Below, piece after piece: positions 26,201 to 57,641 of a stretch of 64,000 nucleotides of DNA. Positions within the stretch are counted from its first letter, which is position 1; each line of letters starts with the position of its first letter. Under the pieces are notes generated by a model. The model saw only the letters and a program-made list of their open reading frames with translations. It was not told the origin of the DNA and did no database searches. Position numbers and translations under genes: made by a program. The DNA is taken from contig NC_053046.1 in the NCBI RefSeq assembly GCF_003473485.1, forward strand, positions 9,186,001 through 9,250,000, given 5' to 3'. Origin of the DNA: Medicago truncatula (lineage: Eukaryota; Streptophyta; Magnoliopsida; Fabales; Fabaceae).

Positions 26201-26700
26201 TTTCAGGGTCCGACCCTCTATAACGTCCCAATTAGAGCCAAATGGGTTTTGACAGTTGAAAAGGCAGAGACTCACCTCACCACCTCCCTCACGAGTACGT
26301 TGTGGGTATTAATGTTGCTGTCTGTCGATTTCAGAAAGAGATTCCCTCATTTAATATTTTCCACTCTTTCTGCTAATTTCTCTGCAAAACACAACACAAA
26401 CCAGTTGGGTAGTATCACGATCACCACCACAACACAAAACAAAACAATTTCCCTTTTTTCATCAAACCAAAACTGCCCTTAATTATCACACACTAATACC
26501 CCCATACTATAGGGTTAAATTTGACTTTTAAGCAACCTAGAAACCATGCAGTTTCTCAAAGAGATGCAACATTAAAACTCAATGCCTAAAGGGCATGGCG
26601 TTATGGGTTAAAATAAGGTAAAAAACAGCATGGAGCTAATACTATGGATTTTAATGCTCTGTCCCTTCTTTATGCCTTGGTAGTCGAGTGTTTTAAATGC
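26201..26700 (+). promoter_or_regulatory. Presumed MIR171 upstream region
   Basis: Less AT-rich than its surroundings, with C/A-rich tracts at 26250-26480. It ends at the TATA box of the hairpin transcript. Only position supports a promoter role; no specific factor site is claimed. Confidence 0.4.
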
Positions 26701-26707
26701 TATATAC
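26701..26707 (+). promoter_or_regulatory. TATA box of the MIR171 transcript
   Basis: TATATAC is followed about 30 bp later by a C/A-rich leader (CCTAAGAAACATTCATTCTC) with no ATG until 26850. This is the usual look of a plant Pol II start region. It lies about 170 bp upstream of the hairpin. Confidence 0.6.
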
Positions 26708-26867
26708 AGGCCCTCTCTCTTTTTAAACCTAAGAAACATTCATTCTCATCACACTCACACACAACCATTTATTCTCATCACACAACCATTACCACCCTCT
26801 CTTTTTTTTCTTACTTAAAGCTCAATATTTCAAACAAACTCAACAAGGAATGGTTAATCTCTATTTT

Positions 26868-26998
26868 GTATGAATTAGCTATTGAGATATTGGCTTGGTT
26901 CACTCAGAAGAAACAAAAAATAACACTACTTGTGAATGTTTTGATTTTGATTTTGATTTTGATTGAGCCGTGCCAATATTTCAAATGCTATTTCATGT
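26868..26998 (+). ncRNA. MIR171: MIR171 precursor hairpin
   Basis: The 3' arm carries TGATTGAGCCGTGCCAATATT (21 nt, 26960-26980), the miR171 sequence with a final T instead of the usual C. The 5' arm 26884-26906 (GATATTGGCTTGGTTCACTC core) pairs with it: 16 Watson-Crick pairs, three G-U pairs and two mismatches over the 21 nt. The stem extends outward (26871-26883 with 26983-26995, three further mismatches) and the loop is about 50 nt. The predicted miR171* is about 26888-26908. miR171 guides cleavage of mRNAs for HAM/LOM GRAS-domain transcription factors and so affects meristem and shoot branching; some legume members act in symbiosis (family knowledge). Confidence 0.92.
26960..26980 (+). 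ncRNA. miR171: Mature miR171 (predicted)
   Basis: The 21 nt begin with T and keep the GAGCCGTGCCAATAT core used by miR171 to pair with GRAS mRNAs. The 5' end is predicted from the family; a register shifted by two bases (start 26962 or 26963) also exists in the family. Confidence 0.88.
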
Positions 26999-27030
26999 TT
27001 TCATTCATAGGTTATAGTGTGATGAATTGA

Positions 27031-28544: not shown

Positions 28545-29830
28545 GTTTTTTTTTTTTTAACAAATCAAAATGAAATATATTGCTTTAAAGGAGAGTGATT
28601 CATCCCGCACAAGGCGTGCTAAGAGCGATGAATCACCCAAGATCTGTACAATAAAAAGACACCTGACACATATGTCACCACCAGAAAAAATAAAAAATTA
28701 CACAGCACCAATGCAAAGTAGTGAGTGTCTCCACCAATCATGAAAACCAAACGCAACTGGTACAAAATTCGACGAAAGCCATAAAAAGGAATTCAGCTTC
28801 ACCTTTTCGACTATATTGTGAGGATCAATTACCGCATTTTTGAAGATACAGTTGTTTCTCTCCTTCCAAATTGTCCAAACACAAGCGAGCCAGATAACCT
28901 TAAGAAAAGAGTGAGAAACTCGTGGCAAACCCGCCAAATGAGTAAACCGAAGGTAATGATTTGTAATTGAACCTGGAAACACACAAGAAAAACCAATCCA
29001 ATGACATATTAAAAACCACACGCTCCCAAACAAATCACATCTATGAAGAGATGATCTGCTGTTTCAATGCAACCACATCCTCCAACACACACGTTTTCGT
29101 TAGGTTGGATAACATGTCGTCGCACCAAATTTGATCTTGTCGGAATTCTATCTTTCAAGAGACGCCAAGCAAAGAGAGAAACTTTTGTAGGAACCAATTT
29201 GTGCCACATGTCGTTGTTTGAATCAACGGTCACCTGATCATCCATAGATGTTAGAAAGCGGTACGTCCCATGAACCAAGTATCCATGTATAAGATCAAGT
29301 AACCAACACAAGTGGTCCTGTAAATTTTCCTGCAAAGTAACGTTATTCAATAAAGTCACGCACTCCCTCACACTATCCTCCTCCTACGCCAACAACCGAC
29401 GCTTCCACCCCCCACCCACTACCTCTTTCTTCCCACCCCATTCTCACCATATCCTCTACCAAACACTCCTTATGGACCGACAACTCATAGAGACGGCTGA
29501 ACTGACACTTTAAAGGGACTCTACCTAGAGTTATCATCAAACCAACTTCCTACTCCCGATCCCACCCCTTCCCTGACCTGACACATCATCCTCCACCACC
29601 CAGAAGCACTTCTACCCCCTTCCTTAACTCGGCCTCCTTCCTCCCCATACCTAGCCTTTAAAACTCGGTACCACAACCCTTCCTTATCAACCAACAACCT
29701 CCATCACCACTTCCCTAACAAAGGTAAATTAAATTCCCCTAGCCTCCAAACCTCCAAACCACCACGATCCACAGATAAACAAATTGTATCCCAATTTATC
29801 CAAGCAATTTTTTTAAAGACCTCACAACCC
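28545..29830 (-). pseudogene. 5'-truncated L1-type LINE with poly(A) tail
   Basis: Read on the minus strand it encodes the end of a LINE ORF2. A region with LWYRVLKARYGEE-like and WWRMMCQVREGVGSG pieces lies at about 29700-29540. The zf-RVT domain follows: DMWHKLVPTKVSLFAWRLLK, then DRIPTRSNLVRR and CVGGCGCIETADHLF. The last piece is VIWLACVWTIWKERNNCIF, with a stop near 28700. At least one frameshift near 29020-29035 splits it. A 3' UTR follows, and the plus-strand T-run at 28546-28559 is the poly(A) tail. The C-rich, G-poor look of 29380-29820 on the plus strand is just the complement of this coding sequence. Confidence 0.85.
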
Positions 29831-45380: not shown

Positions 45381-45541
45381 GGAGGGGCCGCGCGAACGCA
45401 GGCCCCCACAGCAACAAATTATGATGTAGGCTCCACCACTTGGGTAGACCTTAGGCTAGCACCTCTTCAAAGTGCAATGAAGGTCACTTGCCTAGGCCAT
45501 GGGCCTTCCTGATCACCCATTGACCCCATCCAGGTAAGTAT
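45381..45541 (-). ncRNA. U1: U1 spliceosomal snRNA
   Basis: The minus strand from 45541 begins ATACTTACCTG, the invariant U1 5' end that pairs with 5' splice sites. It continues with GGGGTCAATGGGTGATCAGG (stem-loop I) and TTGCACTTTGAAGAGGTGC (stem-loop II region). The Sm site is ATAATTTGTTG, followed by the terminal stem-loop TGCGTTCGCGCGGCCCCTCC. Length is about 161 nt, normal for plant U1. It acts in the U1 snRNP at 5' splice-site recognition in the nucleus. The promoter elements are intact, so it is probably expressed, though plant genomes hold many U1 copies including pseudogenes. Confidence 0.93.
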
Positions 45542-46350: not shown

Positions 46351-46500
46351 GACTTTACCCCAAAGGGAGTCCTTCCAGAAATTCTCGAAGGCTTGAGTTG
46401 CCCCAAGCCCAAGAGGGGGTTTGGAAATAGTTTTCAACCAGCAATAGACGCGCCTCGGTTAGAACCTCATTAGCTGCGTCATTGCCCCAAGCGCAAAGAT
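46351..46500 (-). ncRNA. U4: U4 spliceosomal snRNA
   Basis: The minus strand from 46500 starts ATCTTTGCGCTTGGGGCAAT, then GACGCAGCTAATGAGG and AACCGAGGCGCGTC (5' stem-loop with its kink-turn). TATTGCTGGTTGAAAACTAT follows (U6-pairing region), then a 3' domain with a degenerate Sm site (AATTTCTGG instead of AATTTTTGG). Length is about 150 nt; the 3' end is estimated from the downstream box. U4 chaperones U6 in the U4/U6.U5 tri-snRNP. The Sm-site C is the one feature that could mark a variant copy. Confidence 0.9.
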
Positions 46501-48978: not shown

Positions 48979-49472
48979 CGTCACTATTATAGACAAATAC
49001 TATGAAATGCAAACTAGTGGTTATCTTTTTTATGAAATGCTTTGAGGTTGTTATTGCAAAACCGAAGATTTTAATCTCTTACCAATTATAGTACCTCTTT
49101 ATACGTATCAATCGCTTACTAATTTTTTACATTTTTTTATTACAAAAACATATTTTGGATAAAACAGTTCTGACACGTAATGTCTCGTATACAGTGTAAC
49201 AATTGTACACCTACAAGTGGGACACGTCGTAATCTCATCACAAACATTATTGGATTGGATAATGTTTCCACATTCCAATGTGGGTGGAAATCTTCTCATA
49301 CACGTGGCAACACCATCCAACTTATAATGGGCCAACAACATATTTGAACCCAAGCCCGTTACAATGGGCTTTAAATAAAGCCCAAGCCCATTCATAAAAA
49401 AATTGTCCAATACCAGTTAGCAGCAGCATTCTCAATGATGAAGAAAGTAGCCATAGAATTTTCCAATTCTCA
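48979..49472. promoter_or_regulatory. Bidirectional promoter region between the rhodanese gene and LTO1
   Basis: It contains a G-box (CACGTGGC, 49301-49308), common in light-regulated genes. TGGGCC at 49328-49333, TGGGCT at 49365-49370 and the complement AGCCCA at 49385-49390 are site II-type words typical of housekeeping plastid and mitochondrial genes. The frame at 49108-49410 (minus) is judged non-coding. Confidence 0.55.
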
Positions 49473-52400
49473 ATGGCTACCTTCACCCTCACAACACTAT
49501 CACCTTCTTTCTCTTCTCATTTCTTCGCACCGGTTCGGTTCAACCGTTCTCCGAACCTCTTCTACAAGAATCTGCACTTTCCGAAGCTGCAATCTCTCAA
49601 ATGCTCCTCTTCATCTTCGGAACCAGAAACCTCTACAATTGATTGGACATACAAGCTAATCTCAGGAATCGCCGGAATCGGATTCATCGAAACATCGTAC
49701 CTTGCTTACCTTAAGTTCACTGGCTCCGATGTATTCTGCCCCGTCGGCGGCGATACTTGCTCCAGTATACTCAATAGTGATTACGCCGTCGTTTTTGGTA
49801 TCGTCTATGTCCTTAACTAACTAACGTCTATGCATTTTATTTCTTTGTACTTATTTCTTAATTAAGTGCTTATAGGATAACCACTTAACTTATAAGTCAT
49901 TTTATTTAACGAAAGTCAAATTGTTTTCATTTAAGTTGTAAGCTGTTTTCATTAGTTATCCTAGATAGCTTAGAGATAAGCTGCAACATAGTCACACCTT
50001 TCGGTGGGTGGTATGGATTCGGTACTTGGTTAGCCACTCTCGAAGAATTAGGCAGGGAGGGTATTTATAGTTGGCAGTGAGCTTAGAAATAATGATATTT
50101 GGTTAGCCACTCTCAGCGAATTGTGGCCATTTATGAGCTATCACAATTGCTTATATCAAATAAGTTAATTCAAACTGTTCTTAATTATGATGCAACGCGG
50201 TAATAATTTGTGAAAATTGAAATGATTGTACATAATTACATTTGTTTGTGTCATGCCCGTGTCAGACACCGATATGTATTGTGTTGGTGTCAGACACTAA
50301 TACATGTTGGATACTCACACACCTTCAAATGCAAGTTTAGTGCTAAGTGGTCATTTACTCATTTATAACATGCCTTTAAGTTTTAGATAACTATGCTTAT
50401 TCTATTGAATACACAGTGTTGAGTTGTGATCGGAGAATGATAAAAATTTGACACAAAGAACATCACCTATGTTTTATGCTTTTGTTTTTGCTGTTATGTA
50501 CTGCACAAATTGTGTTTCAAATATTGTGTGAATGAAATTGGTTTTGCATCTGGCAGGTGTACCTCTTCCTTTGATTGGGATGGCTGCGTATAGTTTTGTA
50601 GCTGCTCTTAGTCTTCAGTTAACTACAAAGAAGAATTTACCTTTTGGGGTTAACAGATCGAATGCTCAACTAGTATTGCTTGGAAGCACAACCTCAATGG
50701 CAACTGCTAGTGCTTATTTTTTGTACATTCTAACAACAGCGTTTCCTGAATCATCTTGCTCCTATTGCCTACTTTCGGTTCTCTTGTCGTTTTCGTTATT
50801 CTTTCTCACACTCAAGGTGTTCAATGTTAAAAAAACTTTTATTGTCCAACTTTTTCTATTTCCTTTTTGTGTCTGTGTAATTGATACCCTTTTTGAAATT
50901 TCCGTTTTAGGACATTGGATTGCAAGAGAAGTACAAACAACTGGGTTTGCAGTTGGTTATTGCTAGCTTGGTGATTCTTACATTGAACACCTCCTATAGC
51001 AGTGCTAAATCTACCTCAAGGTGAATATTACGGTATAGCACACATATAATGTTCAATCGCTTCATTTTTTTTTACTGTATAGTACAACTGTTTTGTCACT
51101 CGTCAATTGATGCTAGTATTTCACTAGGTTGAACAAATGTAAGGTATATTTTTTCTTTCATGAGATTTTACATTCAGGCTTATAGCTCATGGCTAATATT
51201 TTCTTATCCAATATTCCTTTTTTTCTAAGCTGCTTTCAGTTTTATTCACATTGACTTCGATATGACATGGTAGAATGCATTTAGTCTGGCAATGAACATT
51301 TTGCACTGCCTTCATGTATATTCTGTGCTTTATAACAGAGACCTTTGTTAGTAATAACTTCCCCTTCGCCTGCTCCTTATCTCCTCCCCTATCCCTTCTT
51401 TCAGTTGAATGTTTGCATAGTCAGAACTCACCGTGTTAAGCATAAATGCATAATTAACCCCTGCTGAGTCGAGATTGTAAGATCAGTCAAGCAGGCTAGT
51501 CAAGTACTCCTGTAAGCCTTAAAGAAAAGAGCGCAGCGGATTTGGCACAAATAATAGCAAATGGAAGTAGCAACCCTCAAGTAGTTTTGATAATGTAATT
51601 AATTAGTACAAATGTTGTCAAATAGTGTCGATGGCGCACCATGGCTGATTGTGGTGACAGATTTTTCACCAACGCCTATGACCAATTTTTGAAGGATGGA
51701 AGCACCCTGGCATTTTATTGAGGATTTTGGCTTTCTGCCACGGTCCTCTATCAATAACCCTGACTTGTATAATGTCATCACATTGAACTGTAATATTATA
51801 AGCGAAATATTGACTTGATGAATACCTACAGAATTTTATTCATCGCCATTATGTGGCAGTTAGTTAGCTTTGGTTTTCTTATTCCTATTAGAGATGGAAG
51901 TTAGGTGAATGACTATGCTTGTGAGATACAATTTTAAATTCACAATTTTTTGATGTCTACTTTAGCAGCATGGCTAAAATTGAGCTGCCATATTTTGCAA
52001 CCGAGATTACAACTCCATCAAGCCCCTTTGCTTTGTCTCTAGCAAGGTATTTGCATTCAATAGGAGCTAAAATGTATGGAGCTTTCTGGTGTTCACACTG
52101 TCTGGAACAAAAAGAGGTATGTGATTGATTACTTACAATTCATTTTGAAAAGTTTAGCCTTACTATGTGGAACAATAATCATCATGATCTATGACTACGT
52201 CTTTTATTTGTTTTTGATAGAATTGCCATAACTTTAGTTTGTATTATATCAAAGTAGTTATCAGAATCCAACTTCAGGAATGCATCTTTCAAAAAAGGAC
52301 TCACTCTCTCATGGCTACTCCTTGTGAGGCTATTGCCTTGGTTTCAATTGGATTTGTATAGTTGGCTGTTTACTTCTTCAAACAAACTTTTCTTGTTCTT

Positions 52401-56641: not shown

Positions 56642-57641
56642 ATGAGCACCACCATAACTGAACTTGAACAAGAAGAATTGCTTGAGAAATTGGAAGTCTT
56701 CAAGATCAAAGGCAGAGATAAGCATGGCCGCAAGATCCTCCGCATTATCGGAAAATTCTTCCCAGGTAAAAATATATTTCAGTTTTTTTTTTGTCTGTTC
56801 TTTTACCGGTTTTTATGTGATTATTGTTATTAATTTCGATTTTGTGATTTTTTGATTTAGCGCGATTGGTTAGCGTTGAGGTTCTGAAGAAGTTTTTGGA
56901 GGAGAGGATTTTCCCGAAGCTAGGGAAGAAGAAATTCGCTGTGTTGTATATTCACACCGGCGTTCAGAGGAGCGAGAATTTTGCTGGAATTTCTTCTCTC
57001 CGATCGGTTTACGATGCGATTCCGGCGAACGTGAAGGAGAATCTAGAAGCTGTTTATTTTATTCATCCTGGTTTACAAGCTCGCCTTTTTCTCGCTACGT
57101 TTGGCCGTTTTCTCTTCAACGCTGGGTAAGAAACGATGAATTTTTCACGTTAATGTTTTTTGAATTAAATTAAATTTAGTCCTAAATCAGCTTTAAATTA
57201 ATCTTAGTTACAATAGCTTGAATTAAATTCAACGTTACTTGAGAATTAGTCTTATCTTTTTACGCGTTAGAAAAATTAAAATCAGCGTTAATTTTCATTA
57301 TTATAAATTAATGAAGTTGTTTGTAGGTTTCGTTATTAATCGGAAATTTTAATTCTCTCAAAAAAAAAAAAATCGGAAATTTTAATGACTAATATTGGGT
57401 TTTGATTGGGTGTGATAGGTTGTACAGGAAGCTGAGGTACATCAGCAGAATTGGTTATCTATGGGAGAATGTTAGGAGGACCGAAGTGGAGATTCCGGAG
57501 TTCGTATACGACCATGATGAAGATTTGGAGTATCGTCCGATGATGGATTATGGATTAGAGAGTGATCATGCTAGGGTTTATGGTACTGCTCCTGCACTAG
57601 ATTCGCCTGTGACTACTTACTCCATGAGGTGTATCTCGTAG
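56642..57641 (+). CDS. Small SEC14/CRAL-TRIO-like protein
   Basis: Three exons, 56642-56765, 56861-57125 and 57419-57641, give 203 aa. The protein fits a short CRAL-TRIO (SEC14-like, GDAP2-type) lipid-binding fold without the N-terminal CRAL-TRIO helix region. EELLEKLEVFKIKGRDKHGR then KILRIIGKFFPA matches the usual GRDKxGRxxxRI..FP start. VLYIHTGVQRSENFAGISSL and LEAVYFIHPGLQARLFLATF fit the HPxxxxR part. The C-terminal tail after about residue 165 (EYRPMMDYGLESDHARVYG) looks plant-specific. A lipid ligand cannot be deduced. It follows LTO1 in the same orientation; the Arabidopsis neighbour At4g35750 is the likely counterpart (recalled). Confidence 0.88.

Follow-up and report, generated by a model that had tools for sequence, protein, structure and literature searches.

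A MIR171 hairpin read from raw Medicago truncatula sequence is the catalogued mtr-MIR171c with its published miPEP171c reading frame

MIR171 genes of plants are described as acting through DCL1 processing, followed by AGO-guided cleavage of HAM/LOM transcripts (PMC8910752), and the mature sequence of the family is reported to carry the motifs GAGCCG and CAAUAU (PMC10340099). For Medicago truncatula, Table 5 of PMC3359237 prints a 21-mer ending in T as mtr-miR171c, while a peptide table in PMC13205790 lists MVNLYFV as MtmiPEP171c (credited there to Couzigou et al. 2017). The latter table is not free of slips, because the miPEP171b sequence appears in it once under an Arabidopsis name, apparently by mistake. 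According to the passages on this peptide in two reviews (PMC9953219, with which PMC11055055 agrees), MtmiPEP171c consists of 7 residues, and its exogenous application leads to lower LOM1 expression and less mycorrhization. The miR171c mentioned in the relevant parts of PMC4115173, PMC9064118 and PMC4212123 is that of Lotus or rice, and has no bearing on the present locus.

The window analysed here (i.e. the whole stretch of 64,000 nucleotides, positions 9,186,001 to 9,250,000 of contig NC_053046.1) contains a hairpin that is a genuine MIR171 gene, already catalogued as mtr-MIR171c with a published peptide ORF, and hence not the hidden gene that an earlier note on this DNA had taken it for. 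The features of the locus are:

26701-26706, + strand: TATA-box-like TATATA, found in the sequence; putative promoter element
26850-26873, + strand: 7-codon ORF encoding MVNLYFV and a stop, the same peptide as the published MtmiPEP171c
26876-26992, + strand: MIR171 precursor hairpin (Rfam RF00643 match), with a predicted lower stem to ~26869
26888-26908, + strand: predicted miR171c star on the 5' arm, TATTGGCTTGGTTCACTCAGA, from the duplex pairing with an assumed 2-nt 3' overhang
26939-26964, + strand: (TTTTGA)4.3 microsatellite with 100% matches, covering positions 1-5 of the mature miRNA
26960-26980, + strand: mature miR171c on the 3' arm, TGATTGAGCCGTGCCAATATT, from the sequence, the fold and the printed mtr-miR171c

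The hairpin scored 69.8 bits against Rfam MIR171_1 (RF00643), which passes the gathering cut-off of 48. The minimum free energy of 26840-27020 was -50.7 kcal/mol, compared to a shuffle mean of -32.88 (z -4.87), and none of the 200 shuffles equalled it. In this fold the 21-mer at 26960-26980 pairs with 26886-26906 at 19 of its 21 positions, 16 of them Watson-Crick and 3 of them G-U; the other two are 1x1 mismatches and there is no bulge. The stem is predicted to extend beneath the duplex down to ~26869. Folding this stretch had been proposed in the earlier note as a check, and the outcome agrees with what was said there on the miR171-like 21-mer on the 3' arm, the number of pairs of either type (the recount being identical), the continuation of the stem outside the duplex and the star at 26888 (with the overhang assumed above), as well as, together with the Rfam score, on the identity of the gene. 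The raw free energy, on the other hand, is a weak argument, because 72 of the 2128 window tiles (181 bases each, step 30, both strands; 25 groups, the MIR171c hairpin included) match or beat that of the hairpin on either strand. It was therefore dropped as stand-alone evidence, and the case is carried by the comparison with shuffles (z-score), by the Rfam score and by the identities with printed sequences.

The mature sequence is, letter for letter, that printed for mtr-miR171c, it is the sole exact copy found in the window and likewise in the genome search, and it contains both GAGCCG and CAAUAU. The predicted star is one base off the aly-MIR171a* printed in PMC3359237. Arabidopsis miR171a shares the register (UGAUUGAGCC...) and the HAM/LOM GRAS target class (PMC8910752), but differs from miR171c in having C instead of U at position 12 and at the final position. 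That the final U of miR171c might mark a lineage-specific isoform, as had been suggested, was rejected in view of the same U in the printed mtr-miR171c (PMC3359237) and of the banana miR171 primer sequence given in PMC10502232, which includes the identical 21 bases; it is therefore neither new nor clearly lineage-specific.

Upstream of the hairpin, the TATATA that had been noted earlier as a TATA box is indeed present at 26701. The leader had also been called ATG-free, which holds from the TATA to 26849, but not beyond: the ATG at 26850, the first one downstream of the TATA, opens the printed miPEP171c ORF, of which the final 5 bases fall within the predicted lower stem. Nothing else in the leader is as informative as this ORF, which had been overlooked. 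In the genome to which the window belongs, each of the six printed MtmiPEP171a-f peptides, stop included, has its start upstream of a MIR171 hairpin of its own, while all six are absent from the other four of the ten MIR171 loci (2.1-3.1 kb of sense strand read per locus); two of the six peptides, having 5 and 6 residues, weigh little singly. Since the six ORFs, all exact matches, each precede a different hairpin, we infer that the species is M. truncatula and that the locus in the window is MIR171c. Compared with mtr-MIR171c and MtmiPEP171c as published, it has the identical 21-nt mature sequence and the identical 7-residue peptide, with no difference found in either.

It is almost certain that these elements form one MIR171c gene, of which the pri-miRNA would hold both the miPEP171c ORF and the hairpin, and of which the miRNA would silence GRAS transcripts. 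For the present copy, we infer the start site, processing and cleavage as follows: the pri-miRNA would start shortly downstream of the 26701 TATA and bear the short miPEP171c ORF followed by the hairpin, DCL1-type processing of the 3' arm would yield the 21-nt miR171c, and this miRNA would guide silencing of HAM/LOM-type GRAS transcripts. What the locus mainly confirms is that both a conserved plant microRNA gene and the ORF of its peptide are recognisable in raw sequence.

A search of the genome for the miR171c complement with up to 3 mismatches gave 16 places, being nine MIR171 loci, three GRAS genes (two mismatches) and four others (three mismatches), while the reversed control pattern gave 0 matches in the same search. 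The three GRAS genes carry the same site, GATATTGGCGCGGCTCAATCA, which pairs with miR171c without any mismatch and with two G-U pairs, at positions 12 and 21. Because position 21 pairs as G-U at these sites, the final U costs only a terminal wobble. The ORFs that bear the site (625, 726 and 729 codons) contain the GRAS domain PF03514 (E 3.8e-89, 1.1e-93 and 3.3e-94, respectively), so that, as judged from sequence, the GRAS target class named in the earlier note is matched by candidate targets in this genome; two GRAS genes of M. truncatula are reported to have putative miR171 sites (PMC5612761). The weaker sites (L027, L028, L029 and L033) have 3 mismatches each in the complement search, and three of these four fall only in frames of less than 90 codons. 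L029 lies inside a papain-type protease frame, and its pairing with miR171c includes two G-U pairs and a single mismatch.

Across the 430-Mb genome, RF00643 gave 19 matches, 17 of them above the cut-off, at 10 distinct loci. In a small tree of these loci, in which no branch attained the star level of the tool, the closest paralogue of MIR171c was the miPEP171d-bearing locus (support 92/88), i.e. MIR171d (C8:34066718-, named by its miPEP171d ORF). The two are alike in their 117-base Rfam match, in their stars (one base different) and in the placement of the miPEP ORF. They differ in that only 93 of 160 aligned bases are identical, and MIR171d has a mature sequence ending in C, a hairpin without the TTTTGA array and a peptide, MHMYLK, that is unlike the MVNLYFV of MIR171c. 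Elsewhere in the genome, L010 (G000:C4:25623450-25623551 -) is a second locus whose mature sequence is exactly the mtr-miR171b of PMC3359237, with no miPEP171b ORF in the 2.1 kb read. Another locus, L011 (G000:C3:45412771-45412871 +), matched MIR171_1 at 43.6 bits, which is below the cut-off, and has GAGCCGGATCAATATCAC on its 3' arm and a 5' arm resembling the csi-miR479 printed in PMC3359237; our guess would be a MIR479-like gene.

A rival reading is that the hairpin in the window is a decayed copy which is no longer processed, the name mtr-miR171c stemming from homology alone. The microsatellite, which fills the 3' side of the upper stem and loop, would fit such a decay, as would the finding that four common bean libraries contained no read of exactly this 21-mer (PMC3359237), although these come from a different species. 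Against it stand an intact duplex (19 of 21 positions paired), with a lower stem predicted beneath it, and the genome search, which found the miRNA sequence printed for M. truncatula in exact form at this locus only; decay is thus very improbable. It is even harder to believe that the real miRNA gene lies on the minus strand, where Rfam also matches (26874-26990 -): that match, at 49 bits, is barely above the gathering cut-off of 48, whereas the plus strand scores 20.8 bits higher, and the published miRNA and peptide both lie on it. Moreover, 9 of the 10 genomic loci are matched by RF00643 on both strands, as expected for near-palindromic hairpins, and the antisense match is therefore ordinary.

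With the stem base defined by a simple outward walk from the duplex, four of the six miPEP171 ORFs overlap the predicted hairpin (a, c, d and e, by 10, 5, 8 and 49 bases), those of a and e extending into the star arm, while b and f have no overlap. MIR171c and its sister gene MIR171d both have the ORF ending in the predicted lower stem (by 5 and 8 bases, respectively) although their peptides are unlike, from which it might follow that translation and dicing exclude each other on any one transcript, the position of the ORF mattering and not its sequence. This idea is a long shot, but the overlap in four of six loci offers a small, testable point on how one transcript accommodates both miPEP translation and miRNA processing.

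It had further been stated that a coding-frame view would reveal nothing at the hairpin. In fact a 128-codon frame (26644-27030) spans it, yet this frame is probably due to chance, because its start lies before the TATA and Pfam gave no match, at E 0.001, to the stop-to-stop frame over the hairpin; a protein-coding reading of 26644-27030 is accordingly unlikely. A sigma-70 and terminator scan was set aside as inapplicable to plant DNA. The stretch around the hairpin is not wholly empty, because a zf-RVT fragment (29012-29383 -, E 8.6e-14), probably a retroelement remnant, lies ~2 kb downstream. Further along the window, genes for the spliceosomal U1 snRNA (45381-45541 -, 145.4 bits) and U4 snRNA (46351-46500 -, 113 bits) share a strand and are separated by ~810 bases. 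Among the 10 window frames scanned, one with a VKOR domain (49398-50963 +) and one with a CRAL_TRIO_2 domain (56848-57126 +) are probably exons of ordinary protein genes.
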